A program made the position numbers and the translations under genes. Of a DNA stretch of 39,142 bases, positions 1,660 through 30,985 are shown piece by piece. Position 1 is the first letter of the stretch, and each line of letters starts with the position of its first letter. Source of the DNA: Crinalium epipsammum PCC 9333 (GTDB taxonomy: Bacteria; Cyanobacteriota; Cyanobacteriia; Cyanobacteriales; PCC-9333); assembly GCF_000317495.1 (NCBI RefSeq), contig NC_019736.1, forward strand, positions 1 through 39,142, written 5' to 3'. The notes under the pieces were generated by a model that worked only from the letters and a program-made list of their open reading frames with translations, did no database searches and was not told where the DNA came from.

Positions 1660-2324
1660 TTAAAATATCGTCGCCACAAGATCAACTGCGTAGTAACAGA
1701 AACCTACTCGCTTTAGTTGGTGGTAGTTCAACTGTAATAGGACTGTTGCTTTGGAGCGCATCACCGTTTCTATTTCCCAACCCCAAAGATAAGTTTAGCG
1801 TTTCACTGCGTTATCTTTCCTTGTTTATTACTAGCTGTTGCGGAATTACAGCAGTTGTTACAGGTAGCTCGTTACAGCGCATCACACCACTAATTAAAGC
1901 AATAGAACAGGCAGAAAAAGCAGACTTCATCAGTCAGTTAGCCACCTCTCAGTGGGTACAGGAACAACGTTATCAATCAGAAGCCGTTACAGCGTTACAA
2001 CCCTCGTTACAGCAACCCGTTACACTGCAACAGCCAAATAGTTATAACGACCGTAACGACAGTACAGCAGGGGATAACGAAGTTAGTAACGAACCTGTAA
2101 CGGACTCCCTAACGACTGCAACAGCCAATGCTGTAACACCTGCAACAGATGAGGAAATGGAAGGTTACAGACCTACTTATCTAGCTGTAACGGCACTGCA
2201 ACAGCAAGGAATTAGCGACAGCGAAATTATCAAAGATGTGTTGAAACAGGGCGGAACAAACTATCAGAAAGGTAAACAGATGTTAGACGCACTTTTGCAG
2301 TTAGGACAGTCTAAAGGTTGGTAG
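1644..2324 (+). CDS. Two-helix membrane protein with long cytoplasmic tail
   Basis: This 226-residue protein has two hydrophobic segments (about residues 22-45 and 57-75), a Gln/Asn/Thr-rich low-complexity middle (about 105-165) and a C-terminal helical block (from YRPTYLAVTALQQQG to the end) that looks folded and resembles a short tail domain seen on other cyanobacterial plasmid proteins. A second in-frame ATG lies at 1656. It overlaps the preceding membrane gene by 16 bases. Unusual base use: between about 1850 and 2210 the words GTTAC or GTAAC occur about eleven times. Function unknown. Confidence 0.6.
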   Translation: MDTTMIKISSPQDQLRSNRNLLALVGGSSTVIGLLLWSASPFLFPNPKDKFSVSLRYLSLFITSCCGITAVVTGSSLQRITPLIKAIEQAEKADFISQLATSQWVQEQRYQSEAVTALQPSLQQPVTLQQPNSYNDRNDSTAGDNEVSNEPVTDSLTTATANAVTPATDEEMEGYRPTYLAVTALQQQGISDSEIIKDVLKQGGTNYQKGKQMLDALLQLGQSKGW

Positions 2325-2375
2325 TTGCACTTTTGATTATTGACCAGAAAGCCACACATACAGTTGAGGAAATAT

Positions 2376-2678
2376 ATGCACAGACCATCATCTATGACGG
2401 AACAACAAAGGCAACAAATTTACAGTTTTATCTACTCAAAAATCAGAATTAAATTTCAAGAATTTCTATCTAGATGGGATGTCACTCACGACTTTATTGC
2501 CGATTTATACCACTGCGACGTGACAACAGTGCGTAGTTGGATTAACAAAAACTTTGGCGACTCTGCCTCGCAACGTTCTCATCAATTTAAGCTATTTATA
2601 GCCGACTTAATCCTGTCAGACTTTGAGGGATTGCCTGATAATTTAAAAATTTTATTTTGCCCTGATTGGAATCGTTAG
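2376..2678 (+). CDS. Small helix-turn-helix protein
   Basis: This is a probable DNA-binding protein of 100 residues. An upstream TTG at 2340 is in frame, but ATG 2376 is preceded by TGAGGA (2365-2370) at good spacing, so I choose it. The central part (THDFIADLYHCDVTTVRSWI) has helix-turn-helix spacing: first helix, a turn near HCD, and a recognition helix VTTVRSWI. The flanking residues are basic and aromatic. It is the last gene of the second small operon and is followed by a terminator at 2688-2715. Its target could include the repeat module that begins just downstream, which is inference from position only. Confidence 0.65.
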   Translation: MHRPSSMTEQQRQQIYSFIYSKIRIKFQEFLSRWDVTHDFIADLYHCDVTTVRSWINKNFGDSASQRSHQFKLFIADLILSDFEGLPDNLKILFCPDWNR

Positions 2679-2687
2679 CTAGTTATT

Positions 2688-2715
2688 AACCCCTTGCTTA
2701 GTAGCAGGGGTTTAA
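2688..2715 (+). terminator. Rho-independent terminator after the HTH gene
   Basis: AACCCCT (2688-2694) and GCT (2696-2698) pair with AGC (2703-2705) and AGGGGTT (2706-2712) around loop TAGT, with one bulged T; an AT-rich tail follows. Confidence 0.75.
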
Positions 2716-2730
2716 TTGTTTTAACTTTTT

Positions 2731-2990
2731 AAACGCTATCGCGTTTCCTACTGAAAGTTGTAATAGTAAAAACTGTTTGTAATACTAAAAATTGATTAAT
2801 AGTGCAAGTTATTTTTAGAAATAAAAACTGTATAAATATTGGAAACTGTTTGTAGTAGTGGAAGCTAATTAATATTGCAAGCTGTTTTTCTACTGATTTC
2901 ACGAATAAAATAGATCCCCTATCAGCCATCGTTTCTAATACCTAAAGGGCGGTAGCCCTGTTAGTCTCTGCCACTGTGGATGTTAATTAG
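2731..2990. repeat. Repeat module A: degenerate 18-20-bp repeats plus hairpin
   Basis: This fills most of the 470-base gap before the NACHT locus. It starts with AAACGC-TATC-GCGTTT, then carries degenerate copies of a unit like AGTAGTGAAAGCTGTTTGTA (about 2751-2900), and ends with the hairpin AGGGC-GGTA-GCCCT (2946-2959) and the words TGCCACTGTGG. Modules B (6485-6745) and C (11952-12136) share the same order of parts. A and C are nearly identical over the last 100 bases. The role is unknown; protein-binding iterons, a recombination site or a regulatory leader are all possible. Confidence 0.75.
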
Positions 2991-3118
2991 CTTTATCCCA
3001 ATCAAGGACTTGTGCAGAGTTCATAAGTTATCAGAAATAATCAGAGATAATAATAATTCTGTTACTACTTTTATGGCAGCAAGCTGCGGACATTACTAAG
3101 TAGATAGAGCAAAGCCGA

Positions 3119-3124
3119 TATAAT
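3119..3124 (+). promoter_or_regulatory. Candidate -10 box upstream of the NACHT locus
   Basis: A perfect TATAAT lies 28 bases before the ATG at 3152. No good -35 box is visible at standard spacing, so this is only a candidate. AGGG directly upstream of the ATG could serve as a weak ribosome binding site. Confidence 0.35.
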
Positions 3125-3151
3125 ACTTTTCAAGTTCTGGAGTATATAGGG

Positions 3152-3643
3152 ATGTCGAGCGAGCGTCTGCGCCAAGTTGAACGAAATTTGACTCGTTTGC
3201 GCCAGCAATTGGCAGGAAAAGAAGATACATTGACGACCATCGCTCCAGAAGAACGGGTTCGCATTAAGCAGCAGATTGCCGATTTGAAGGCAGAGATGCA
3301 GCCGTTTGAGGAAGAGTACTGGAAGATTTTGGGGGATGAGTCAGCGACAATTACTATCTCAGAGCCAGCGCCAGAAATAGTTGTTGCTGAAATTGTCGAA
3401 CAGGCGGGACAACTGCAAACCAGCCAGCAATATTCTGATGAGGTGCTGGAATGGTCACAGAAAATTTATGCTGAAGTGAGTAAACCGGGAACACCTGCGG
3501 CGGCTAAGTTAAAGGCAGCGCTGTCACTGATGCCGCCATTTGTAAATCTGTCCTATGAGGCAGAGTTGGATACGGAGAACTTTTTACGGACGCATTTCCC
3601 GACATTTACCAAGTGGTCTAAGGTGCTGGCAAAAAAGTTGTAG
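3152..3643 (+). CDS. N-terminal part of a NACHT NTPase (0-frame of a slippery junction)
   Basis: Read alone this gives 163 residues: a coiled coil (about 1-55), an acidic linker, and a helical block (about 85-163) ending SKVLAKKL. The stop codon follows directly after A_AAA_AAG (3631-3637). A -1 shift on that heptamer joins it without a stop to the NACHT frame, which is open from 3622. The combined protein would be about 800 residues, with a coiled-coil N-terminus, a NACHT domain and a membrane repeat region. I infer that the two frames are one gene, either through programmed frameshifting or a simple frame-disrupting mutation in the A6 run. The short product alone would lack the ATPase. Confidence 0.65.
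   Translation: MSSERLRQVERNLTRLRQQLAGKEDTLTTIAPEERVRIKQQIADLKAEMQPFEEEYWKILGDESATITISEPAPEIVVAEIVEQAGQLQTSQQYSDEVLEWSQKIYAEVSKPGTPAAAKLKAALSLMPPFVNLSYEAELDTENFLRTHFPTFTKWSKVLAKKL
3631..3637 (+). promoter_or_regulatory. Candidate programmed -1 ribosomal frameshift heptamer A_AAA_AAG
   Basis: The codons are GCA AAA AAG TTG TAG in the upstream frame; slipping back one base gives AAA AAA GTT GTA GCC and enters the NACHT frame. This heptamer is the one used in E. coli dnaX. A purine-rich AAGGTG (3620-3625) lies upstream as a possible Shine-Dalgarno-like stimulator, closer than in dnaX. Downstream pairing (GTTGT 3637-3641 with ACAAC 3670-3674, CCC 3644-3646 with GGG 3667-3669) is weak and overlaps the site, so a convincing stimulatory structure is lacking. 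Confidence 0.5.
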
Positions 3644-3780
3644 CCCGCGATCGCCAACCAGGTCAAGGGACAACGCCAAAATCAAGCACCCCACCACCAC
3701 TAAGACCTAAGCGGGAAGCATCTCAGGAGAAACTGCTGAAAGCCGTCACAACAGAAGTACGGGAACGGCTGGCACAGTCG

Positions 3781-5565
3781 TTGCACAATGCGGTGTGGCT
3801 AACTCTGGGAATGGAACGGCAGGACTATCGCGTGCAGCGTCCTTGGTCGGCAACGCTGGCGCAACCATCCCACTCACCGCTCCCCTTGGCTGCCGGAACT
3901 CGAATTGTAGAGGTATTTGATCGCCAAGAACTTGCCCGTCAATTGCTGATTCTGGGTGAACCCGGTGCGGGGAAGACAACAATGATGTTGGAGTTGGCAG
4001 AGGATTTGCTGCAACGAGCGATCGCGGACAAAGCTGAGCCAATCCCCGTGCTAGTTAGTTTGTCATCCTGGAAGAATCCGGGACAGCCAATTTTTGAGTG
4101 GCTAGTAGGCGAGTTGAAGGGGAAGTACGGAATTCGTCAAGATTTGGCGCAGCGATGGCTAAAGAATAATCAATTGCTGCCGCTACTAGATGGGTTGGAT
4201 GAGGTAACACCTCAACATCAACAAGCTTGTGCTGTGGCACTTAATACTTGGTTGACGGGGGAAATTGGTCAGCGCCCAAGTGGTCTACTAATTTGCTGTC
4301 GGCGGGAAGAGTTTGAGCAAGTAGTGCGTCGGCCGTTGAACCTGTATGGGGCGATTTATTTACAGGCATTAACCGTCGAGCAAATTGAGGACTATTTTGC
4401 TCAGTTTGAGTTGCAGGATGTGTGGCAGACGGTGCAGCAGGATGAAGCGTTGCAGGAGTTGCTGACAAGGCCACTATTTTTATCGATGTTTGGCTTGGTA
4501 CAAACACAGGGTAAGTTTTCGCTCTCTGTTTGGAGAGAAAGTACCACCTCTGAGCGCAAAATTGAGTATTTGCTCGATACCTACTGGGATGCCACAATCA
4601 CCCGTGAATTGATTATCGACCCTAACGAAAAACAACAGGATATTCTCAGTAAAACCTACGGTACAAAGCCACTGCCAACGCGCAAAGCTGTCCAGAGAGC
4701 GCTCGTCTTTGCCGCCAAGATGCTTGAGTGCCAATCTAGCACGGAGCTGTTGATCGAAAAGATGCAGCCAACTGCACTCATCGCTCAACGGCAAAAATGG
4801 GCATATCTGCTGATTAAAGGGCTGATTATCGGGCTGATTATCGGGCTAATTTTCGGGCTGATTGGGCTTATGTTCGGGCTGATTGGGCTGATTTTTGGGT
4901 TGATGTTCGGGCTGATGGGAGGGCTGGACACAATCGAACCCGTAGACGAAATTTCAATTTCGATATCGCACGAAGGACGGCGGGAAATTGTGCGATCGCT
5001 TCGCATATGGCTGATTTTCGGGCTGATTTTCGGGCTGAGTCTCGAGCTGAGTTTCGGGCTGATGGGAGGGTCGAGTTTCGGGCTGATTGGGCTGATTGTG
5101 CTGATTGAAGGGCTGATTATCGGGCTGATTATCGGGCTGATTAAAGGGCTGATTAAAGGGCTAAAAGCAGATATCCAAACTCGCATTGACCCCAATCAGG
5201 GCATGAAAAACTCCGTAAAAAACATGGTCGTCGTCAGTGCGATTGCCCTAATGATGGCGTTGTCCTTTAAGTTCCTCCTCGAATATCTCCTCGCCAGTGT
5301 CGTTGGTTCCAATGAACTTTTTTTTATGGTCGAAATTGCTCTAGTTATGTTAATTTGGTCAAGTTTCTACCAAGCTGGTGGAAATGCCTTAAGCAAACAC
5401 CTTGCCTTGCGCCTCGTCCTTGCCTGGAATGGCTACGCCCCGTTGCGCTATGATCTCCTGCTCAACTACTGCACCGAGCGCCTCCTGTTGCAGCGAATTG
5501 GCGGTCGCTATCGCTTCCTGCACAAGCTGCTGCAAGACCACTTCGCCAAGATGGATTTGGGGTGA
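3781..5565 (+). CDS. NACHT-domain NTPase with Gly-Leu-Ile membrane repeats
   Basis: This is a STAND-type P-loop NTPase of the NACHT group. From the TTG at 3781, Walker A is GEPGAGKTT (59-67) and Walker B is LLPLLDGLDEV (132-142), followed by the usual helical region. After about residue 340 come two blocks of short repeats such as GLIIGLIIGLIFGL (about 4803-4925 and 5011-5165), and then one or two more membrane segments (about 487-530). The frame is open back to 3622 with plausible coding (KLLKAVTTEVRERLAQ just upstream), so 3781 is not the true N-terminus; it most likely continues from the gene at 3152. Bacterial NACHT proteins include antiviral sensors; the glycine-rich membrane part could be an effector, which is inference. 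A ParA gene follows in the same direction. Confidence 0.8.
   Translation: MHNAVWLTLGMERQDYRVQRPWSATLAQPSHSPLPLAAGTRIVEVFDRQELARQLLILGEPGAGKTTMMLELAEDLLQRAIADKAEPIPVLVSLSSWKNPGQPIFEWLVGELKGKYGIRQDLAQRWLKNNQLLPLLDGLDEVTPQHQQACAVALNTWLTGEIGQRPSGLLICCRREEFEQVVRRPLNLYGAIYLQALTVEQIEDYFAQFELQDVWQTVQQDEALQELLTRPLFLSMFGLVQTQGKFSLSVWRESTTSERKIEYLLDTYWDATITRELIIDPNEKQQDILSKTYGTKPLPTRKAVQRALVFAAKMLECQSSTELLIEKMQPTALIAQRQKWAYLLIKGLIIGLIIGLIFGLIGLMFGLIGLIFGLMFGLMGGLDTIEPVDEISISISHEGRREIVRSLRIWLIFGLIFGLSLELSFGLMGGSSFGLIGLIVLIEGLIIGLIIGLIKGLIKGLKADIQTRIDPNQGMKNSVKNMVVVSAIALMMALSFKFLLEYLLASVVGSNELFFMVEIALVMLIWSSFYQAGGNALSKHLALRLVLAWNGYAPLRYDLLLNYCTERLLLQRIGGRYRFLHKLLQDHFAKMDLG
4803..5165 (+). repeat. GGGCTGATT-type short repeats encoding Gly-Leu-Ile membrane stretches
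   Basis: Two clusters (about 4803-4925 and 5011-5165) repeat GGGCTGATT with 9- and 12-base units such as GGGCTGATTATC. They encode GLI and GLIIGLIF patterns with glycine every three or four residues. All units are multiples of three, so expansion or contraction keeps the frame. Confidence 0.85.
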
Positions 5566-5593
5566 AAGGAGACGACGGAGAACCTGAAAGTTG

Positions 5594-5627
5594 CGATCGC
5601 ATTTGAGAAAAGGAAGGAATGCGATCG
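5594..5627. repeat. HIP1-containing inverted repeat between NACHT gene and parA
   Basis: CGATCGCATT (5594-5603) pairs exactly with AATGCGATCG (5618-5627) across a 14-base purine-rich loop. No T run follows, so a terminator role is uncertain. The rest of the 170-base gap is AT-rich and may hold the parA promoter. Confidence 0.5.
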
Positions 5628-5735
5628 TTCATCGCATGACAGTTGGTAATCTTTCAAACCTTTGCAGCTTGCCAACTTCAGGTAACTAAGCAACATTATA
5701 CTGTATATCTTTAAATACTGATTTCTGTAAATACG

Positions 5736-6347
5736 ATGATTATCTCAGTCCAAAATCAGAAGGGTGGGGTAGGCAAGACAACTCTAGCTATCCACATTAG
5801 TCATGCTTTAGCAGCCCAAGACTCACGAGTATTGTTAGTCGATGCCGACCCTCAAGGCTCTGCTCGTGACTGGGCAGCAGCTAGAGATAGCCAACCACCA
5901 TTTGCTGTAGTAGGGTTAGACCGACCGACTATCCACAGAGATTTATCTGCTATAGCTAAAAACTATGACCACGTAGTTATTGATGGGCCACCACGAGTAA
6001 GCGACATAGCTAGGTCTGCCATCATTGCTGCTGACCTAGTGCTGATACCTGTACAGCCTTCTCCTTTTGACGTTTGGGCAGCACAAGAAGTAATTAACTT
6101 GATTACTGAGGCTTCTGTATTTAAAGAAAAACTGAAATCTGTATTTGTAATTAATCGTAAAATAGTAAACACAGCAATAGGACGTGACGTGGCTGAAGCT
6201 TTGTCTGGCTATAACATTCCAGTACTGGCAAGTACCATCTGCCAACGGGTAGCTTTTGCTGAATCAGCAGCAACAGGTCAGACAGTCATGGAAATTGATC
6301 TTAACCTTGAAAGACCAAGTTATATTTTTAGGGTCGTGCAATCTTGA
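5736..6347 (+). CDS. parA: ParA-family partition ATPase
   Basis: ParA ATPases move plasmid copies apart by binding DNA in the ATP form and being released by a partner bound at a centromere. The deviant Walker A is QKGGVGKTT (residues 8-16), followed by LLVDADPQGSARDWAAAR (Walker A' region) and VVIDGPPRVSDIAR (Walker B region). At 203 residues with no N-terminal HTH it fits the short type Ib group. No ParB or ParG-type gene follows directly; the next element is repeat module B, which may contain the centromere, and small HTH or RHH proteins elsewhere could be the partner. A second, actin-type segregation system is present at 31432-33051, which is redundant and notable. Confidence 0.9.
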   Translation: MIISVQNQKGGVGKTTLAIHISHALAAQDSRVLLVDADPQGSARDWAAARDSQPPFAVVGLDRPTIHRDLSAIAKNYDHVVIDGPPRVSDIARSAIIAADLVLIPVQPSPFDVWAAQEVINLITEASVFKEKLKSVFVINRKIVNTAIGRDVAEALSGYNIPVLASTICQRVAFAESAATGQTVMEIDLNLERPSYIFRVVQS

Positions 6348-6484
6348 TTAATAAATCCTACTAACCATAAGTAGCTGCAATGTTACAACCAGCAATAAAT
6401 CTCAAAACTCCATTATTGACCATAACGTATAACATTCTTAACTACCTGCTATAAAATGCAAGGATTTAATTGTTTTAATTGAAA

Positions 6485-6745
6485 AGTATCGTTATCGCGT
6501 TTCGTATTAAAAGCTGTTGTAATAGTAAAAACTGTTTGTAGTAGTGAAAGCTGTATAAATATTAAAAATTGTATAAATATTGAAAGTTGTATAAATACTA
6601 AAAGTTCATCAATAGTGAAAGCTGTATAAATAGTGAAAGTTTTTTGTAAAACTGAAAACTGTTGTACCACTGTTCCATCAGGTAAAATTAACCACTCTCC
6701 TCCCTACAATACTAGGGCGATAGCCCGTCATAAGAGTTGTTGCCA
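6485..6745. repeat. Repeat module B: 18-bp repeats plus hairpin, downstream of parA
   Basis: This occupies most of the 500-base gap between parA and the DUF433 gene. Units with consensus ATAnTGAAAGyTGTATAA start at 6541, 6559, 6577, 6595, 6612 and 6630 with 17-18-bp spacing, preceded by looser copies from 6503. A hairpin GGGC-GATA-GCCC lies at 6715-6726. Position next to parA makes a parS-like centromere possible, but related modules A and C lie next to other genes. Remaining DNA up to 6850 is AT-rich with AAAGGAAC as ribosome binding site for the next gene. Confidence 0.8.
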
Positions 6746-6850
6746 ATATCTTTGACTCATTATTTCTACTTTTTGATAAGTTGGTTCATAGTAAGATCTA
6801 GTAACAAGCGCCCTGGAATTAAACTTAATAATTAAAGGAACATAAAAAAT

Positions 6851-7177
6851 ATGCAACTTGAAGATTATTTTGACTTTCTCTCACCCGATGATATCCGCAT
6901 CAAAGGACATCGCATCGGTATTGACAATGTGCTTGATTATTACAAAGACGGATATACACCAGAAGAAATTGCCGTTAATCTATCTACTTTGAGCTTGGAG
7001 CAGATTTACGCAACTATTACCTACTACCTACATAATCGTGCTAGTGTCGATGCCTACCTGAAACGTATAGCCGATTGGAAAAATCAGCGTTACGTTGAAT
7101 GGGCTGCCAATCCCTCCGCCTTAGTGCAACGTATTAGAGCCGTCAAAGCGGGACAAACTGCTGAAAAGGTCAGTTAA
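6851..7177 (+). CDS. DUF433 antitoxin
   Basis: The 108-residue product shows the DUF433 pattern: a short N-terminal strand region, RIKGHRIGIDNVLDYYKDGYTPEEIAVNL, then SLEQIYATITYYLHNRASVDAYL. DUF433 proteins have a helix-turn-helix-like core and serve as antitoxins for the PIN-like DUF5615 toxins in cyanobacteria and other bacteria. AAAGGAAC precedes the ATG. Two bases after the stop a GTG starts the expected toxin frame, but the toxin is broken (see 7180-7299), so this is probably an orphan antitoxin. Repeat module B lies directly upstream. Confidence 0.8.
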   Translation: MQLEDYFDFLSPDDIRIKGHRIGIDNVLDYYKDGYTPEEIAVNLSTLSLEQIYATITYYLHNRASVDAYLKRIADWKNQRYVEWAANPSALVQRIRAVKAGQTAEKVS

Positions 7178-17161: not shown

Positions 17162-17440
17162 CTACTTTTTGGGTGCAGTTCCCAGTTCTTTCTCAATCCG
17201 TTGCAGTTTAGTATTTGTCCAATCCAACCTTTCATAAATGCTTTGCAGGTAGGTCATGGTTTGGTAATAATCATACTGCTGAACAAATTTAAAGCTGGCT
17301 ATATTCAAGACAAGCATCAGGAAGCTATAGCCAATAACTCTACGGAATTCTTCGCCCCAAGTCTTCTCAAAGTTCGAGGTCTGAGCTTTTGTTGTATCTA
17401 TTCCCGCACAATGGGGACATACACTATTAGATAAATTCCG
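17162..17440 (-). pseudogene. 5'-truncated small membrane protein gene
   Basis: The minus strand is open from 17440 to the stop at 17162-17164 and reads SVCPHCAGIDTTKAQTSNFE, then a hydrophobic segment (VIGYSFLMLVLNIASF), then a charged coiled-coil end (LDWTNTKLQRIEKELGTAPK). It looks like real protein: a CxxC half zinc ribbon, one membrane segment and a coiled coil. No ATG, GTG or TTG exists before the hydrophobic segment and an in-frame stop precedes it, so the N-terminus seems lost. The + strand frame in the same place looks less like protein. Function unknown. The 290 bases between the RHH tail and this fragment hold no gene. Confidence 0.4.
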
Positions 17441-19806: not shown

Positions 19807-22800
19807 CTAGCTATTATCACAGTTATTATCAGGAATAATCAACAAATCTGAGGAAATAAATAATGAATCTATTTTTTTGGTAGTGAAAGGATTTTTACCT
19901 ACTTCAAGTTGCTTAATCCAAGGTTGTATTCTTTCTTTTTTCTTAGTCAATGAAACCCTATCGTAGAGTAAATTGCAGTACTCGCTTCTACCTTTGAGAT
20001 ATTCAGGTTGAACATTATTATATTTATTTAAATCGGTTTGAATGCTTTTTAATTTATCATCAACCAATTGTAAACTTTTCTTAAAATCTTCAAGAGCACC
20101 TTCTGTATCTCCAGTTAGTGTTTTAGCTAAAGCACGACTTTCTAGATAATTAAATAATTCTTCTGATTTAGGTTCTACAGCTTTGTCACAGGCACTAAGT
20201 ACTTCTTTAGCGTAGCCATCTAAACTTCCTAGCCAACAAAGCGTATTCCAATAATTTTGGCTAATAAACGATGGAGCGAGCTTTTCGGCTTCTTGGAAAT
20301 ATGCTATTGCTTGCTTTACATTGCCCCCATGCAACACTATCTCTCCATACTTTAATTGAGTTTGAGCCGCAATTTTTTTTGCAGCCGTTTTCGGCTCAAA
20401 GTTGAGTTGAGGGTTTTGTTTTTTTGCTATCTCAAACTTTTTGACTGCTTCATCAATATTACCAGCTTGAGCGAGTTCTTTTCCTTCTGCTAACCAATCT
20501 CGTTCAATACCTTTACAAGGGTAGCCTTCTGTTTGATTAACTTCAGTATGGGTATCTAAATAGTTTCTTAGTAAATGACATCCTTGGACTAATAAATTAT
20601 CTAAGGTCAACTCTGATAAAATTTGTTTCTGGCCGCTATCTAGATGCCATAAAATGGTTGTTCCATCTCTACTCGTAGAGGCAAGTATCTTGCCGTCGGA
20701 ACTAAAACTAAGATCGGAAGCTTCGTGACCTTCGAGAGTTTTTAATAACCGACCGTCTTCTACATTCCAAAGTTTGATAGTCTTATCTTCACTGGCAGAT
20801 GCCAGAGTTTTTCCATCTGGACTAAATTTAATATTCCAGACCCCGTCGGTATGTTCTCCCAAGACTTCTTGTGGAAGATCTAAAGTTTTAATATCTATAA
20901 TTTTAGATTTTAGATCTTTGTTCTGTATTCTCCAGAGCTTCACAAGACCACTTGTAGTTCCTACCGCAATAAATTCACCATTAGGGCTAAAATCTAGACT
21001 ACTAGCGTCTTGAGAACTCATAGATCTCCGTTGTGAACCAGATAATGACCAAGAATAAAAATGAATTAACCCGTCCAAACTAATAGAGACTAACATCTTT
21101 GCATCAGGACTAAAGCTTACATCAGAAATAGGAGCAGGAGCTTTTTTACTGTACTCTAAAGTCCGTAATTCCCGGCAGTTTTGTACATCCCACAGTTTTA
21201 TGACACCATCGGCACTTGTAGATGCTAGGACTTTTCCATTTAAACTAAAATCAAGGGACCACACCGATGCCTTATGACCTTTTAGAGTGCATATTTCTTG
21301 ACCATATAGAGACAAAAATTTTATAGTTTTGTCAGTATTAGCATAAGCTAATATCTTGCCATCTGGGCTAAATTGGATATCGTGGATTACGCCTTTTTTT
21401 TGTGAATGTGAAGTTTGGGTAACTTTAAAACTTCGTATAAGTTGACCTTCTAAATTCCATAAATTGATAGTTGTGTTTTGTCCAACAGCCACAGTTTTAT
21501 TCTTAGGATTGATATCAACCCTAATAGGATAATCTTCAAAGTTTGAACACTTTAAATTATAAAATAGGGCAAAATCTGGACAGCTTATCTCATCAAGTGA
21601 CCGCTCTTTCCGATTCTCTAATGACCAAATTTTGATGTTTCCTTCTAAACTTCCCGATACAAGAACTTTAGCATCGGGACTAAAATTAAAGCTCGTAACC
21701 GGAGACTTGTGTCCTTTAAACGTTTTTATTTCTTCTCCATCTAAAGCAAAAAGCGTGATAGTGCCATCAGCATTACCGGCAGCAAGCGTATATCCATCAT
21801 GGCTGAATCTAATGCTGGTAATATTATTCTTCTGTTTAAAGGTGCGTAGTTCCTTGCCATCTAGGCTCCAAAATTTGATCTGATTTTGACTAGCTGCGGC
21901 AATCATCCTACCGTGTGGACTCCAACTAATGCTTTCTATATCGCCAATGTGTTTTGGAAAGGTTTGCAGAAGTTGACCATTTGTTACATTAAAAAGTCGA
22001 ACGGTATTGTCCTTTCCACCTGAAGCGAGTGTTTTGCCATTAGGACTGAATCGGAGACTGGTAACAGCTTTTTCATTATTATTTATGTTCTTAAATTTAC
22101 TATGTTGGAATCTTCTTAATTTTTTATTATTCACCAAGTTGTAAAAATTAATATATCCGTTAGGACCTCCACTGGCAGTTATCTGGAGGTTAGAGTCAGT
22201 AGCTATAGGAATGCATTCATTTGACTGACATGTTAAGTTTAGTTTATAAAAATAACTTGTGTTTCCCTTTAATCTGAAAAAAGCTCTATGAATTCCATCA
22301 CGTCCTTTAATTACCTCCTTTGAAGTTTCCAGAAGCTTCCCATTCACATCCCACACTTGATACCTACCATCTAGTACTCCATAGCTGGCAGTGGCGAACA
22401 CTTTTGCATTAGGACTCCAACCAATGCTATGAACTGTCATATTTTTATAAGCCGGAAAGGAATTGATTTCGTCCAAACTGTAAATAGTTTTTCTTAATGT
22501 AGTCACAACCCTTTCTTTTGTTTCTGAGTTAGCAAAAGCCCCTGGTTGTTTTAATTGATTTGCTGCTTTCATAACTGTCAAAAGCGCAGTTAATTGTTCA
22601 CCTTTATAAAATTCTTGCTTTGAAATTTCTAATTTTTTGTTAATTTCCCTTTCTTGCTCGACCCGTCTCCATTGAGTAAAACTTATCAAAATCAAGACAC
22701 AACTTACAAACACAGTTACTAAAAAAAACAAGTTTGCTTTTTTCTGTTTTTTATCCAATTTAGCCAAAGCTTTTTTTTGGCTAGAAACTATAAACTCCGA

Positions 22801-24054
22801 CTCCGATCTGCTCAAAAGTTTACCATCTGCCCATTCCAGGACTTTCTGTAATTCTTGCTCTTGTAGTAGCTTAGATTCATCCTGTCGGTGAGAAATTTCC
22901 CAATCCTTTAGTGCTTTATTAAAGAAAGAAGGGCGTAACTTAGCTAACTGCTCTTCAACCCAATCTTTATTAAAAACCTGCTCATAGATAGGGTTATAAC
23001 CCTTTAATTTATCTACCCGCTTAACTACTAATCCAGATAGCTTTAATTCTATCTGTTCTGGACTATCATCAGCAGCGCTCGCCCCTTTCTGTAAAATTTC
23101 CTGATATAAACCCAACAATCTGCCAGCACGTTCTTTACCCACTAAAAAGCGACTTTCAATAGTCTTAAAATGGACGGGTTCATCATTTGATTGCCAATTG
23201 TCAATTAAATAAAATCTTACTAACTGCTCAATCCTAATTTTTTCCTCTCCTGCTTGTATAATCTCTCCTCGATCTTCCTGCACTAATTTACACAATTTTT
23301 GAGTTAAAAAAGGTTGTCCCCCCGTCCAGTACAGTATTTCCTTCAGTACCGCTTGAGGATTTTTAGCCTTTTCTGCTAACCCTTCCGCTAATACTTCCGA
23401 CTTCTCAAACTCTAATCCCTCCAGTTCGATTCCTTCGCCAATATTAAAAGGAGTTTTATTAGGATCTCGAATCAACCCTGAAGGTGTCGCCACTCCTAAC
23501 AAGACAAAATTCAGTCGCTCATAAGCAGGATTATCAACTCGCAGGTTGTAACACGCTCGAATTAAAGCAAAAAAGTCACTAACACCGAAATCAAGATTGA
23601 GGACGCTATCAATCTCATCAATGAAAATGACAACTTTCTCTCCTGAAACGCAAACCAAGATCACATCTTCTAGATACAGATATAACTGCTGTAGAGGGGA
23701 TAACTGCTCCTGTTCTGCTAACCAATCTTTCAAGTTTAATTGGGCAGTTAATTTAAAATTTCGGTGTAATTGGAGGATAATGGCTCGATACCACTTTTCA
23801 GGGGTGATTCCTTCACTGCCAATTGTGGTCAAGTCAAGAGAGGCACAACTAATCTTTTCCGCTTTAAGTTGCTCCACCATTCGCACTCGGAGACTCGACT
23901 TGCCCATCTGTCGGCAGTTAAACACATAGCAGAATTTTCCGGCTTTGAGAGCCGCATACAAGTTGTCATCGGCTTGTCGCCGGACATAGGGAGCATCGAC
24001 GGTTAAACTCCCGCCGACTTGATATTCATAGGTATGACTGTTAGATGAACTCAT
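19807..24054 (-). CDS. AAA-like NTPase with membrane segment, WD40 repeats and TPR-like tail
   Basis: This 1415-residue protein has, in order: an AAA-like P-loop domain (about 1-370; Walker A region [10 protein letters not shown], Walker B region [12 protein letters not shown]), a linker, one membrane segment (about 440-460, [17 protein letters not shown]), thirteen or so WD40 repeats (about 540-1150, e.g. [20 protein letters not shown]), enough for two seven-bladed propellers, and a TPR-like helical tail (about 1200-1370, including [20 protein letters not shown]). The AAA-like domain belongs to a group common in cyanobacteria (AAA_35 type). WD40 propellers usually bind protein partners, so a membrane-anchored sensor or scaffold is likely. 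It follows the 24102-25412 gene by 47 bases on the same strand. Confidence 0.85.
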
Positions 24055-24101
24055 AGGTTAAGCCACTCAGCAATATAGAAGACTGAAAACAATTAAGAGC
24101 G

Positions 24102-25412
24102 TCATCCTAGAGATTCTTGGAAGTAGTGCTGATAGAGTTTAGAACTTAGTTTAACTTGGTTGTTATTAAGCTCCACTAACCCTAATCCTTGTAGTTTGTA
24201 ACTTGCCTCTTGTAGCAATTCCACACCCTCTGGAGAGGTTATGACCTTTTTAAAAGCAGCTACGATGGAAGGCTGAGACTCCAAGTTCTCCCGGAGATGT
24301 TCTAAGTGATTGCGATAAATACCTGTAAGAGTTGAAGCTGAGGCTAACAGTTGTTCTAGAGATATCTCCCCCTTCTGGATGTGATAGAGTGCCAGTTGAA
24401 TGAGATAGGGATGTCCCCCCACTAATGCCATTAAACTGTCAACCTCTCGACCTGAAGACCATCTCAATCCATAACACTGCGCTAGCTGCGCTACCTCTTC
24501 CCTCGTCAACTTGGGTAAAATCTTACCCGGCCCTACATTAAAGGGAGATTGATTGCTATTGAGGTTGATGTAGACATCAGTAGCGTAAACTACTACTTGG
24601 CGCAGCTTACTCCAAGTCGCCGGATCGTTGTTGCGCGCCTCGTACCACCCCCGCAACATTGGAAAAAAAGATTCAGCGATCGCCGGATACTCAAATAGTC
24701 TATCTACCTCATCCATCCCTACAACCAAGGGAGTATCCATTGGCTCTAACAAATACATCTGAAAGTAATCAGTACAACAGGTGAGACTGCCAAACAGATC
24801 GCTATCCCACTCATCTAACTGAGGTTTTAGCCCTAGTTTTTTACTCACAGAGGCACAAAACCACTGTAAAAATCGGTCTAAGTCTTTCACAATAGATGTG
24901 TCTACCTGTCGCAGGTTTAAATAGACCGTTCGATAGCCTTCTTGCTCGGCCTTGGCAAGCGTTCGATTGAGCAGAGAGGTTTTTCCCATTTTCTTAGCCC
25001 CCTTAAGCCGTACTAATCCCCCCGGTTTGAGAACTTCTTTAGCGCAATCTTCTTCAATTGAAGGATGAGCAATATAAAAGTTAGAGTCTAAGGCAACAGG
25101 ACGACCGGGAAAGTCTGGCTCTGGTTTCTGAAGGATATAGCGATCGCGCAGCTGGGGAGCCACCCAGTCCGGGTGGTGTTCGATGAACAGATCGATCAAA
25201 TCAGGCCGATAGGAGAGGTGTTCCCCTTCCCCATTAGTGAGGTCAAATACCTTACAGACATTGGAAATGTGTTTTCTCGTCGTGGACTCACTGCTTAGCC
25301 CTAAGGAGTCAGTAATCTCCTTATCCGTCTTTCCAGCTAAAAACTGCTTTAGCACAGGCTTTTGAAACCGGGTAAGTTGCTCTAGGCGATCGTTGAACTC
25401 TACTTTTTTCAT
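24102..25412 (-). CDS. HTH plus AAA-like NTPase, first gene of a two-gene operon
   Basis: This 436-residue protein starts with a LuxR-like helix-turn-helix region (LTRFQKPVLKQFLAGKTDKE, then STTRKHISNVCKVF) of the kind found before AAA-like domains in cyanobacteria (vMAP-N-like). The AAA-like domain follows from about residue 105: Walker A region KGAKKMGKTSLLNR, Walker B region PLVVGMDEVDRLF, and the sensor-like VGGHPYLIQLALYHI that is typical of this group. It is not the membrane type. It and the following AAA-WD40 gene probably form one operon, and both lie inside the 61-bp inverted repeats. It may act as an ATP-dependent switch, with the HTH binding DNA or a protein partner. Confidence 0.85.
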   Translation of the reverse strand: MKKVEFNDRLEQLTRFQKPVLKQFLAGKTDKEITDSLGLSSESTTRKHISNVCKVFDLTNGEGEHLSYRPDLIDLFIEHHPDWVAPQLRDRYILQKPEPDFPGRPVALDSNFYIAHPSIEEDCAKEVLKPGGLVRLKGAKKMGKTSLLNRTLAKAEQEGYRTVYLNLRQVDTSIVKDLDRFLQWFCASVSKKLGLKPQLDEWDSDLFGSLTCCTDYFQMYLLEPMDTPLVVGMDEVDRLFEYPAIAESFFPMLRGWYEARNNDPATWSKLRQVVVYATDVYINLNSNQSPFNVGPGKILPKLTREEVAQLAQCYGLRWSSGREVDSLMALVGGHPYLIQLALYHIQKGEISLEQLLASASTLTGIYRNHLEHLRENLESQPSIVAAFKKVITSPEGVELLQEASYKLQGLGLVELNNNQVKLSSKLYQHYFQESLG

Positions 25413-27381: not shown

Positions 27382-30300
27382 CTACAATTCCAACTGCTTT
27401 TGTTCATTACTGGGCGATGGAATATATCTTGGCAGACTGTTCTGTCTCTCTTGTTCCTTTTCCTTCAATTTTTCTGATATTTGCTGCCATTGTCTAACAT
27501 CTTCATCAGTTAGATTACACTTCTCTATCCATTTACCATTCAACTTAAACACTTCCCCACGCTCGTCGTGAGCAATCACAGTACAAGTATTTCCAACTCG
27601 CTTAAAAGTGTAGTTATCTTCTACTTGTGACTGACCATACTTGATAGTTTTGAACAATTCTTCAACAATTGAATCAACAATTGTTACTCGTTTGTTTTGT
27701 TTTGGGTCATCTTCTAACTGCTTTAATGTTAGAGCGATTGCCAACCTTTCTTCTCTGTAAGCATAAAACTTTTCAAAAGCTTTAGGATCATGCTGAAAAT
27801 CTTGACTTTTAGGACTTCTCAGTAAGATATGCTTCACATCCTTATTACTATAGCCTTCATTGAGTGCGAATAAAGCCACGCCAACATCTAGATCATCTCG
27901 CAACGTGAAGTTATTGTCCTGTTTTACTTCTGTTACTAATTCATGGTAAATTTTATCCAAATAGTCTATGGCGGCTAGGGTATCTTTTGGTAGTTCCAAC
28001 CGTTTAGTAGGAAGAACTGGAGTAGCTGGCTCTGGATTTAAACTGTTGGATTCTTGATTGCGTGTAGTGTCTAATTCTTTTGGTTTTTGTTCAACTAATT
28101 GTTGATTTTCTTGAATGTTATTTTCTAGCTGTTGCTCGGCTTCATGATTAATTTCTAGCTGTTGCCCTGGCAGTAAAAAGTCCTGTTGGTATTTAGGCTC
28201 TATAGTACATTCATTAGCTTGATGATCTCGGTGAGTTTTGTAGCTAATGCTTCTTGAGTATTGAGAATGTATTTCTAAAGTTTTTCCATTGGATAAGGTA
28301 GCTTCGTATGGAGGATAAGAAAAAGATGCTCTCACAAATGAAGAGTTTTTTTGTTCTGAAGAAATAAAACTTTCAAATGCTTTTGTAATCAGATTGCGTT
28401 CCCAATTTTGACGCTGCTCCCATACAGGACTAGATTCCCATTGTTTTTTTGCTTGTACAAGTTCGGATTTAGTAATTTTATATGCTTCAAGTTTCTTTTC
28501 TGGAGTGTTTTCACTCGGTGCATAACTGGAATAAAAATGGTATTGAGGCTGTCTGATACTCAGTATTGCTAAGAAAGCGTCCAAGCTGATGTTAGATGGC
28601 TTTTGTCCTTGACTTTTCGTTCCTTTTATCCCCCAAAGACTCCCCGCTTTTTCGTCACTTTTTGTTCTAGCATCTGCACCTGTTGTTGAAGTGTCGTCAT
28701 TGGTTTTAGCTGAGTTACGTGTTCCTTGATTTGTTTCTCCACTGAGTCCAGGCGTTGATGTGTTTTGTCCTTCTCCGTGTAATACACCTGAAACCCTTCC
28801 AGATTGATGATCCTCTCGTCGATCGCTAGCAAGGCTGACATCATGTTCTGCTCGTACAAAATGAATTTCTTCTCTATGCTGGGTAGTCCGTCCTTCTCCC
28901 TCTGCATTAAGCTGTTTAATTCCTTCTGCAATGTAGCCGTTGAGTTGGTTAAGTGAGTCAATTGTTGCATTAAGTGAGTTGGCTCCTTGTTCAAATTCTG
29001 TTGTTGCAACTGGTTCTTGAGCCGCTGTTCTACGTCTGCGTCTGATGCCATCATGGATTCGGTTAATTTCTTCAAACTGTTGAGAGATGTCTGCTGCACT
29101 AATTCCAGTTGTTGGGCTTGCTGTTGGCTGACTTGATCTTGCTGTGCTGCTTGCTGTTCTACTGTCGCTACCCGCACTTCGATTTCGTCCAATCTGCAAT
29201 GAAAGTTCTGCGTTAAATTCGTGAACTGCTGATCCAAGTTGGTTAAGCTCTTTTGCCAGGTCGAATTGTTTGGCAGGTTTTTCTCTAGCTGCTGTATTTT
29301 CTGCTCTAGCACCGATAGGGGCTGTTGCCAATTCTCGTTCTGATTGTTCTGTACGTTTTCTACTGTTACTGTTAGTTCGCTCAAGCCTTCTGCTAAAGTC
29401 GTCTGTGCTTCTATCGAGTTGGCTAACTGCTGTTGTAAGTTGCTCTGTGTTTCTATCGAGTTGGCTAACTGCTGTTTCAACCAGTTGTTTTCCTGGGTCA
29501 GATTGGAGATCTGCTGACTCAATTGTGCGATCGCAGATTTCAACTCCTCTATTTGATCTGGCAGTTGCACTTGTGTCACTAACTCTCGTGCTTGCTGTTT
29601 GGCTTTCTGCTGTAACTGTTCCTGCAATCCCATCTGCCACCTCTATTTGTAAGTGTTTCGCAGCTATTTTCTTATTTATACTTGCACGACTATTAGTAGC
29701 TGAATTGGCGATCGCCTCTGCATCTCTAACTGGATCAAAACTTACAGATTTATGAGTTTGCAACCCTGCCCAACTGTAATGTTTTCCTAAATCACTACCT
29801 TTAAAACCATGCTCCCAATCTGGGTGTGCGAAACTAATGCCTTGAATAATATTGTTGCGAGTCTGCTTAATCCTGACTTCTACACCTGTTGACTGCAACT
29901 TATCTATAAGATCAGTCATCGTTGTAGGTTTCTGGGTCAATTCATCAATTAATGCTTGCAGCTTCATCCTTGCAGATGGTTGAGGAGGTTCAGTGCGTTT
30001 ACCCTCTTCAAATTCCTGCTGCTGTTGATACAGTACCCGTATCTCCCCTTTAGTGGGATTGTGCTGTTCTTTCTGATTGCTGAGATGGTGCGGGGTTGGA
30101 ACTAGATCGTATTTCTGCTCCAATTCTCTCATCAAATTTAAAGAGCGTAGATAGTCCCACGAGTCAGACACGCATTCTGCTGTCAACTTGACACGACTAG
30201 CAACGATGTGAACGTGGGAGTGGTCGTGTTTACCGTTATCCTCTGGTTCGTGATGTCTGACTACTATATATTGATTGTCATCAAAGCCCATACCTTCTAG

Positions 30301-30546
30301 GTAATCACGGGCTAAATCTCTCCAAGTATCGTTACTCAGTTCTTCCCCTGGCGCTGCTGACAGTGAAGCGTGAAAAACTATATTTTTGACGTTGGAGTTA
30401 ATCACTCGTCCTATTTGAAACTCGGCAATCATCTCCAGTGCATTGCGTCCTGACATATTGGTGTCAAGCATTTCTGCACCTGACTGGTTCATCACGTACT
30501 TGACGCAACCTGAGAAACTTTTACCTTTAATAGTGTTACTAATCAA
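27382..30546 (-). CDS. Relaxase (mobilization nuclease)
   Basis: The relaxase nicks oriT and stays bound to the 5' end for plasmid transfer. I choose the TTG at 30546 (MISNTIKGKSFSGCVKYV) because GAGGAG lies 7 bases upstream; the gene overlaps the mobC stop by 8 bases. About 1054 residues. The N-terminal relaxase domain (about 1-220) contains NIVFHASLS and the metal-binding HDHSHVHI motif (about 107-114), as in MOBP/VirD2-like enzymes. The middle (about 305-640) is low-complexity and fully overlapped in another frame by a 335-codon gene. The C-terminal part (about 650-1050) is unassigned. No coupling protein or pilus genes are present, so transfer needs a helper. Confidence 0.9.
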   Translation of the reverse strand: MISNTIKGKSFSGCVKYVMNQSGAEMLDTNMSGRNALEMIAEFQIGRVINSNVKNIVFHASLSAAPGEELSNDTWRDLARDYLEGMGFDDNQYIVVRHHEPEDNGKHDHSHVHIVASRVKLTAECVSDSWDYLRSLNLMRELEQKYDLVPTPHHLSNQKEQHNPTKGEIRVLYQQQQEFEEGKRTEPPQPSARMKLQALIDELTQKPTTMTDLIDKLQSTGVEVRIKQTRNNIIQGISFAHPDWEHGFKGSDLGKHYSWAGLQTHKSVSFDPVRDAEAIANSATNSRASINKKIAAKHLQIEVADGIAGTVTAESQTASTRVSDTSATARSNRGVEICDRTIESADLQSDPGKQLVETAVSQLDRNTEQLTTAVSQLDRSTDDFSRRLERTNSNSRKRTEQSERELATAPIGARAENTAAREKPAKQFDLAKELNQLGSAVHEFNAELSLQIGRNRSAGSDSRTASSTARSSQPTASPTTGISAADISQQFEEINRIHDGIRRRRRTAAQEPVATTEFEQGANSLNATIDSLNQLNGYIAEGIKQLNAEGEGRTTQHREEIHFVRAEHDVSLASDRREDHQSGRVSGVLHGEGQNTSTPGLSGETNQGTRNSAKTNDDTSTTGADARTKSDEKAGSLWGIKGTKSQGQKPSNISLDAFLAILSIRQPQYHFYSSYAPSENTPEKKLEAYKITKSELVQAKKQWESSPVWEQRQNWERNLITKAFESFISSEQKNSSFVRASFSYPPYEATLSNGKTLEIHSQYSRSISYKTHRDHQANECTIEPKYQQDFLLPGQQLEINHEAEQQLENNIQENQQLVEQKPKELDTTRNQESNSLNPEPATPVLPTKRLELPKDTLAAIDYLDKIYHELVTEVKQDNNFTLRDDLDVGVALFALNEGYSNKDVKHILLRSPKSQDFQHDPKAFEKFYAYREERLAIALTLKQLEDDPKQNKRVTIVDSIVEELFKTIKYGQSQVEDNYTFKRVGNTCTVIAHDERGEVFKLNGKWIEKCNLTDEDVRQWQQISEKLKEKEQERQNSLPRYIPSPSNEQKQLEL
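28626..29633 (-). CDS. Coiled-coil protein nested out of frame inside the relaxase gene
   Basis: This is a 335-codon frame, same strand as the relaxase but shifted, lying wholly inside it. ATG 29633 is preceded by AGAGGTGGCAG, a strong Shine-Dalgarno at about 6 bases. The product is a long coiled coil, with IEELKSAIAQLSQQISNLTQ, a duplicated LKQQLANSIETQ / LQQQLANSIEAQ and repeated LEQKIQQLEK patterns. In this stretch the relaxase itself is only a low-complexity linker, which fits selection on the nested frame. Nested mob genes are known (mobB within mobA in RSF1010-type plasmids). A chance long frame caused by Gln-rich codon use is the main alternative. Confidence 0.6.
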   Translation of the reverse strand: MGLQEQLQQKAKQQARELVTQVQLPDQIEELKSAIAQLSQQISNLTQENNWLKQQLANSIETQSNLQQQLANSIEAQTTLAEGLSELTVTVENVQNNQNENWQQPLSVLEQKIQQLEKNLPNNSTWQKSLTNLDQQFTNLTQNFHCRLDEIEVRVATVEQQAAQQDQVSQQQAQQLELVQQTSLNSLKKLTESMMASDADVEQRLKNQLQQQNLNKEPTHLMQQLTHLTNSTATLQKELNSLMQREKDGLPSIEKKFILYEQNMMSALLAIDERIINLEGFQVYYTEKDKTHQRLDSVEKQIKEHVTQLKPMTTLQQQVQMLEQKVTKKRGVFGG

Positions 30547-30985
30547 CTTGCAACTCCTCAAAGTCTTCAGTAACACTGTTGGAGTCCATTATCTCTCTGC
30601 GTACCTGATGCAGCAGTTCTGTTGTTTGATTGAGTTGAGCAGATAGTTCATTGAGGAGTGCGATCGCGCTTGTGTCTACCTGTACTGCTTGATCTCTTTG
30701 AAGACTGGTATTAATGCCCCTAGCTATCTGGTTAATGTTGTTCCCAGTGTTGGTCAAGTTAACCGATATCTTACCCAACTCTCGATAAGTGGAGAGTGCA
30801 ACAGTAGTTACCTTGCGGGGAAACTGGCGACGAAAGAAAGCGCGACGAAATGCTTCGGCTCGACTTAACCCTACCTCGTTTGCCTTAGCGAACGATAGTT
30901 CATCTTCTTCAGGAGTAAGTAGCAGGTTGAACATTCTTGTTCGCTTCTGCTGTTGCGATTTTTCTCGTGGCGGTTTGTGCTTCAT
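30539..30985 (-). CDS. mobC: MobC-like relaxosome protein
   Basis: This 148-residue protein has a basic N-terminus (KHKPPREKSQQQKRTR), a ribbon-helix-helix-like part (FNLLLTPEEDELSFAKANEV, then RAEAFRRAFF) and the signature LGKISVNLTNTGNNINQIAR, the hallmark of MobC-family mobilization proteins. MobC helps the relaxase open oriT. The stop overlaps the relaxase start, so translation is coupled. The candidate oriT lies just upstream at 31053-31125. A HIP1 site lies inside the gene. Confidence 0.85.
   Translation of the reverse strand: MKHKPPREKSQQQKRTRMFNLLLTPEEDELSFAKANEVGLSRAEAFRRAFFRRQFPRKVTTVALSTYRELGKISVNLTNTGNNINQIARGINTSLQRDQAVQVDTSAIALLNELSAQLNQTTELLHQVRREIMDSNSVTEDFEELQVD

Follow-up and report, generated by a model that had tools for sequence, protein, structure and literature searches.

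That accessory mobilization genes can lie nested in relaxase genes is well established for ColE1 and RSF1010. In RSF1010, a MOBQ relaxase is fused to a replication protein and MobB is small. The plasmid mbeA gene is mentioned as overlapping mbeB and mbeD in some ColE1 plasmids (PMC6118388), and mobB of RSF1010 is described as lying in mobA/repB in a different reading frame, with MobA, MobB and MobC all essential for mobilization (PMC2200642). MobB of R1162 is needed for relaxase transport signals, according to the title of a reference cited in PMC3297438. In the ColE1 record, the relaxase ORF (2132–3733) encloses MbeB (2868–3386) and MbeD (3393–3626; annotated as mobilization/exclusion), both in the +1 frame. 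The MbeB start reads AAAGGAGCATTTT-ATG at codon 245 of the relaxase ORF. Judging by their sequences, MbeB seems to contain a hydrophobic helix, and MbeD seems to be a short coil.

We analysed a 39,142-nt stretch of contig NC_019736.1 of Crinalium epipsammum PCC 9333 (the window). Its minus strand carries a MOBP-type relaxase gene of 1064 aa (27382–30576) with a complete PF03432 domain (residues 27–158, E 1.1e-29); similar relaxases are typed MOBP in plasmid records. The start of this gene is overlapped by one for a MobC/NikA-like relaxosome protein (30539–30985, minus strand; PF21983 8.9e-9, PF05713 2.8e-5). The relaxase ORF encloses all of a second minus-strand ORF (28626–29633; 335 codons, ATG start), which lies in the relaxase +1 frame. 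The earlier note had read this ORF as a nested coiled-coil gene and likened it to the nested mob genes of RSF1010-type plasmids. That parallel holds and is closest to ColE1 mbeB/mbeD. As in the window, ColE1 has a MobC-family gene upstream, is a MOBP-typed plasmid and keeps its accessory genes wholly in the relaxase ORF, in +1. Unlike in ColE1, the protein of the window is a single long coil of 335 aa without a membrane helix, in a cyanobacterial host. RSF1010 and R1162, as described, share with the window a gene nested out of frame in the relaxase gene, whereas the MOBQ fusion and the small MobB set RSF1010 apart.

Its size and genes suggest that the window contig (C4) is a mobilizable cyanobacterial plasmid. 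A search of the host contigs for coupling proteins gave no match on C4 and one match each on C6 and C7, which fits a mobilizable plasmid borrowing a channel. The VirB4-like model PF03135 had no match in the host genome; as a control it was positive in just 1 of 14 genomes, so that this negative carries little weight. Elsewhere on the contig, the plus strand (3152–5565) encodes a NACHT-domain ATPase, preceded by a small ORF that weakly matches an effector-associated domain, and the minus strand (19807–25412) encodes a complete AAA_35 protein next to an ORF of 1415 aa. Both regions may hold signalling or defence genes.

In relaxase numbering, the nested frame is open from codon 315, and its first potential start codon (ATG, GTG or TTG) is an ATG at codon 318. 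A Shine–Dalgarno-like site, GAGGTG, lies 4 nt ahead of this ATG (29638–29643, minus strand); this is the putative ribosome binding site with which the earlier note had credited the gene. Over the same stretch, the third frame of the minus strand contains 41 stops. When the relaxase gene was shuffled 2000 times among synonymous codons, no +1 ORF reached 335 codons (longest 250), and the same was true of 2000 shuffles of codon order (longest 190). Coordinates, frame and both null models thus confirm the out-of-frame ORF. On the sequence evidence presented here and below, we conclude that 28626–29633 represents a genuine protein-coding gene within the MOBP relaxase gene.

Hydrophobic residues of the nested protein peak at a period of 3.5 residues, as coiled coils should show, and none of 2000 shuffles was equally strong; we therefore ascribe coiled-coil character to it. 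The relaxase frame in the overlap has a weaker 3.5-residue peak (10 of 2000 shuffles equally strong). AlphaFold modelled nearly all of the nested protein as helix at low confidence (pLDDT 52.8; alignment of 4 rows), and the model was too poor for use as a structure-search query. The protein has no membrane helix, its highest 19-residue hydropathy being 0.75. The internal repeats QQLANSIETQ / QQLANSIEAQ reported earlier are present and reflect a 30-nt block duplicated with one base difference (two-copy span 29403–29474, minus strand). Their use as support for the nested frame did not stand: the same block reads TAVSQLDRNTE / TAVSQLDRSTD in the relaxase frame, so it gives the nested frame no preference, and we dropped it as frame-specific evidence. 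Nor did the relaxase prove to be the low-complexity partner in the overlap. Letter entropy there is about equal in the nested frame (3.81) and the relaxase frame (3.85), compared with 4.14 in the remaining relaxase, and low complexity is therefore not peculiar to the relaxase frame.

Searches of Pfam and NCBIfam with the window protein gave only matches below the cut-off, mostly to coiled-coil families, and PHROGs gave one weak match to a family of unknown function. The MbeB model PF04837 was absent among the 11 families listed up to E = 10, the MbeD/MobD model PF04899 had no match up to E = 10, and no match to the DUF6753 model PF20538 was listed in the Pfam searches. Both Mbe models find the ColE1 proteins (MbeB at 3.6e-22, MbeD at 1.9e-35) and do not match the window protein, which we thus do not file as a member of either family.

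Relatives of the window protein are few. A search of 72,556 plasmid records at E 1e-5 gave none, and none was confirmed in viral contigs. The search across genome contigs returned the G003 contig only, and among 388 genomes of the order there were relatives in the host (G000) and G003 and none in the other 386. The G003 contig (G003:C3) belongs to the uncultured cyanobacterium MAG PMM_0019. Its ORF of 388 aa, +1 in a relaxase gene, is 43% identical to the window protein in a start-to-stop MAFFT alignment (34% by BLAST). The alignment begins at the start and reaches the C-terminal KKRG[VL]FG, which reads KKRGVFGG in the window (28629–28652, minus strand) and KKRGLFG in G003:C3. The relaxase of G003:C3 (L007, 653–3065) reads in two frames, with the switch where residues 222–235 of the window relaxase align; this is either an assembly error or a real break.

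In the host genome, matches to the window relaxase occur on five contigs (C1, C3, C4, C5 and C7), and a long nested ORF was seen on C4 and C5 only. On C5 (L006) the relative is again +1 in the relaxase gene and is interrupted; its two pieces are 70% and 60% identical to the window protein. Within L006 2941–8129, an inserted stretch breaks both the relaxase gene and its nested gene and carries a 524-aa ORF (5286–6860; DUF6399 match) that, by its look, would be a transposase. The relaxase domains of C5 and the window are just 35–39% identical, whereas a block of 163 nt within the overlap shows 94% DNA identity. This combination suggests that the nested module was exchanged between replicons of one host.

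To place the window among other relaxases, we sampled genes by similarity to its relaxase. The sample came from 11 of the 481 plasmid records with a match, from the loci plus 100 more places of an order search and from the loci plus 60 more places of a class search, and consists mostly of best-scoring rather than random places. It comprised 208 distinct relaxase frames, or 201 after merging those with an identical 300-nt stretch. Twelve of the 201 run off the available sequence (11 of the 184 non-nested frames and the nested L155). We screened every ORF in the +1 or +2 frame with 80 or more codons (70 or more in the overlap) and chose 16 coiled-coil-like loci by eye, by a criterion noticed after the fact (low Trp+Cys and many Gln, Glu, Lys, Leu or Asn); G003:C3, with its split relaxase, was added by hand. 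A coiled-coil-like nested ORF was thus found in 17 of 201 distinct cyanobacterial relaxase genes, always in +1, and no such ORF was found in the other 184. The 17 loci come from 11 genomes with seven family labels. Besides the window, C5 and G003:C3 (L012), they are L132, L155, L157, L171, L172, L187, L203, L212, L216, L228, L232, L235, L042 (= L048; Gloeothece verrucosa PCC 7822 Cy782204) and L050 (Leptolyngbya sp. NIES-3755 plasmid2). Some of the ORFs are short: synonymous shuffles were equally long in 403 (L132), 138 (L050) and 81 (C5) of 2000 cases, and for these three we dropped ORF length alone as evidence.

The other cyanobacterial nested ORFs resemble that of the window in their +1 frame, in their coiled-coil-like composition and in occupying the same part of the relaxase gene, after the nuclease domain. 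Ten of them (L006, L050, L132, L155, L157, L171, L172, L187, L203 and L228) start exactly 11 codons past a relaxase [WYFA]xG[LI][QD] motif (GLQ-type). The relaxase codons at these ten contain GGA, GGG or GGAG, followed by the out-of-frame ATG, and by eye a GGA- or GGAG-like site precedes the nested ATG in most loci. The same +1 ATG is found in 38 of 131 motif-bearing relaxases that are not nested, where it opens just 2–38 codons. The window differs from the ten in starting 46 codons past the motif; G003:C3 (37 codons) and L042 (79 codons) also start further downstream, and the motif had no match in L212, L216, L232 and L235. The N-terminal stretch of the window protein, MGLQEQLQQKAKQQARELVTQ (29571–29633, minus strand), follows an [LM]xxxA[KR]xQ-like pattern which, as judged by eye, is common to several nested groups.

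Unlike that of the window, the nested ORFs of nine of the 17 loci include a membrane helix (L132, L042, L171, L172, L203, L216, L228, L232 and the second ORF of L235). The helix is lacking from G003:C3, C5, L050, L155, L157, L187 and L212 as well as from the window. In L042 and L216 the relaxase stop lies just ahead of the helix, which is therefore encoded outside the overlap. L235 (G577:C2:319900–323905) has +1 ORFs of 164 aa and, by the start chosen, 186–203 aa in tandem; with the helix in the second, they recall ColE1 mbeB plus mbeD. The MbeB and MbeD models had no match up to E = 10 in the nested proteins of G003:C3, L132 and L042 and were absent among the best 25 of 67 matches for L050 and the best 25 of 47 for C5.

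All-against-all BLAST sorted the nested proteins into about six sequence groups, about five of them besides the window's and some joined weakly. Coil composition inflates these scores, and since coiled coils are low in complexity, the weak similarities among groups may be convergent. Proteins in 31 other plasmid records, in some cases labelled DUF6753, match the tail of the Gloeothece nested protein; the 19 other matches listed span 55–115 aa at 26–58%, and several of them carry only the label hypothetical protein. DUF6753 (PF20538) genes adjoin mobC-relaxase in Nostoc and Tolypothrix plasmids. They are stand-alone genes whose C-terminal part is common to the Gloeothece nested protein, whereas the window protein has no such match; a literature search on DUF6753 found no paper. 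On the window contig, the end of a 51-aa ORF (17162–17317, minus strand) matches a DUF6753 protein tail (55% over 33 aa). This ORF is perhaps a remnant of a membrane-anchored coil gene.

We then asked which frame shapes substitution in the overlap. A gene under constraint as a relaxase alone should change fastest at its codon position 3. With a +1 offset, the third position of a relaxase codon coincides with the second of a nested codon, and the first relaxase position with the third nested one. Inside the overlap, window and C5 differ at 30/164, 23/164 and 18/163 of relaxase positions 1, 2 and 3 (position 3/position 1 ratio 0.60), compared with 3/37, 4/38 and 9/36 outside it (position 1 versus 3, P 0.064). 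For window and G003, the counts are 77/194, 65/195 and 55/198 inside (ratio 0.70; P 0.014) and 7/22, 6/22 and 16/23 upstream. With the two pairs pooled, position 1 versus 3 inside the overlap gave P = 0.003. The order of positions is reversed inside the overlap relative to outside, and the nested frame therefore sets the substitution pattern. Within the window's own group, support comes from these two pairs and is modest (P 0.014 for window/G003; 18 versus 30 substitutions for window/C5).

Six pairs from other groups gave ratios of 0.13–0.65 inside the overlap, and closer pairs reversed more strongly. The reversal was best in L171/L172 (P 1.8e-10), with position 3 versus 1 counts of 84/249 versus 13/249 upstream, 17/259 versus 71/259 inside and 40/98 versus 8/97 downstream. 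In L050/L155 the ratio was below 1 and not significant (P 0.075). All eight nested pairs, which share sequences and hence are not independent, thus had ratios below 0.75. Forty control relaxase pairs without a nested ORF gave 0.93–4.13 in the same part of the gene, with two below 1 and none below 0.75; these were picked by similarity from 353 candidates, each relaxase at most twice, and are generally less diverged than the window/G003 pair. Downstream of the overlap, the usual order of positions was absent in L171/L187 (1.07) and L172/L187 (0.85) and weak in L155/L157 (1.24). The nested frame of L187 closes early, so that some of what counts as 'downstream' for it still lies in the nested frame of its partners. 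The test covered three groups (window, L171 and L050), while the assignment of L132, L203/L212, L216, L228/L232, L235 and L042 rests on composition and position, joined in some cases by similarity.

Site-class dN/dS for the nested frame was 0.63 and 0.50. Eight control pairs spanned the same range (0.32–1.28), and we dropped this measure as evidence for the nested frame. For the relaxase frame, the values were 1.06 and 0.84 in the overlap versus 0.19–0.60 in eight controls. Among the dN/dS controls, L017/L043 is inflated by repeated alignments.

Taken together, relatives, shuffles, 3.5-residue periodicity and a phase reversal (0.70 and 0.60 versus 0.93–4.13 in controls) support the earlier proposal of a coiled-coil gene under selection inside the relaxase gene. 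Read literally, its expectation that homologous relaxases keep the nested frame free of stops fails in most of them (184 of 201). Because the substitution phase follows the nested frame where that frame is present, we read the gene as a patchy trait. What these comparisons point to is a patchy class of putative nested coiled-coil genes in cyanobacterial MOBP relaxases, wider in scope than first noted.

How the class arose was approached with a FastTree phylogeny of 201 relaxase domains. The nested trait needs 10 changes on it, of which well-supported branches impose four; shuffled labels need 16.5 on average, so that the trait shows more clustering than they do. This tree, from FastTree only and with many long branches, does not separate one origin from several. 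It is compatible with repeated births, with a single birth followed by many losses and with exchange of the module. One scenario, which we put forward tentatively and would not ourselves bet on, sees a cradle for such genes in the place where the nuclease domain of cyanobacterial MOBP relaxases ends. There, the codons of a G-[VI]-x-Y-[ED]-like stretch can spell a Shine–Dalgarno-like GGA or GGAG and a +1 ATG; accessory coil genes may have been overprinted more than once, come to dominate selection on the shared DNA and moved as a module from relaxase to relaxase.

As to function, we consider it probable that the window holds a real nested gene of this patchy cyanobacterial set whose product acts as a relaxosome accessory, like ColE1 MbeB/MbeD or RSF1010 MobB. 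An accessory role seems the most likely one, and the protein may, as suggested earlier, stabilise the relaxosome. The nested protein would be translated from its own start together with the relaxase and would form a rod-like oligomer. Its N-terminal helix may contact the relaxase–DNA complex or the coupling protein, and the rod would hold this complex and present it to the transfer channel. Versions with a membrane helix (nine of 17 loci) could tether the complex to the membrane. Without one, the window protein would need a membrane partner or would work in the cytoplasm.

A real gene with another plasmid role, such as entry exclusion, copy control or partition, nested just for co-expression, is possible but rather unlikely. 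No functional domain was recognised in the window protein, and the exclusion label of ColE1 MbeD would suit such a role. Against it, similar ORFs under seven family labels always lie in a relaxase gene (a position that follows from how they were sought), ten of the 17 start at one codon, and the contig already has a ParA-like gene elsewhere (5736–6347).

Programmed frameshifting into +1 would yield a relaxase with a coiled-coil tail and no separate protein, and in its favour the G003:C3 relaxase is divided over two frames. That split separates two relaxase parts, however, neither of which is the nested frame. The window's nested frame is closed immediately ahead of codon 315, three codons before the ATG, and GGA- or GGAG-like sites precede the ATG in most loci (by eye). 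We regard frameshifting as very improbable. Still less credit goes to a chance frame, kept open by composition or repeats and untranslated: the shuffle counts for L132, L050 and C5 and the 30-nt repeat in both frames would fit it, whereas the window ORF length (0/2000) and ratios below 0.75 in 8/8 nested pairs and 0/40 controls would not. Least plausible of all is a constraint from a non-coding element (oriT, RNA or DNA signal), for which only the general knowledge speaks that such genes can hold regulatory signals, since the constraint tracks nested codon phase over up to 259 codons, unlike a non-coding element.

The relaxosome-accessory reading concerns genes that apparently have gone unannotated in cyanobacteria. 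Full-text literature listings contained no report of nested mob genes in cyanobacterial relaxases, and the terms 'overlap', 'nested' and MobB do not occur in the main text of a paper on cyanobacterial plasmids (PMC8600333). The two named plasmid records with a nested ORF list the relaxase alone there, in a gene table that describes itself as incomplete. The window offers a clean case of two proteins on shared DNA, of which the nested one looks the more constrained. Hidden accessory genes of this kind would alter both the annotation and the testing of mobilizable plasmids in cyanobacteria.
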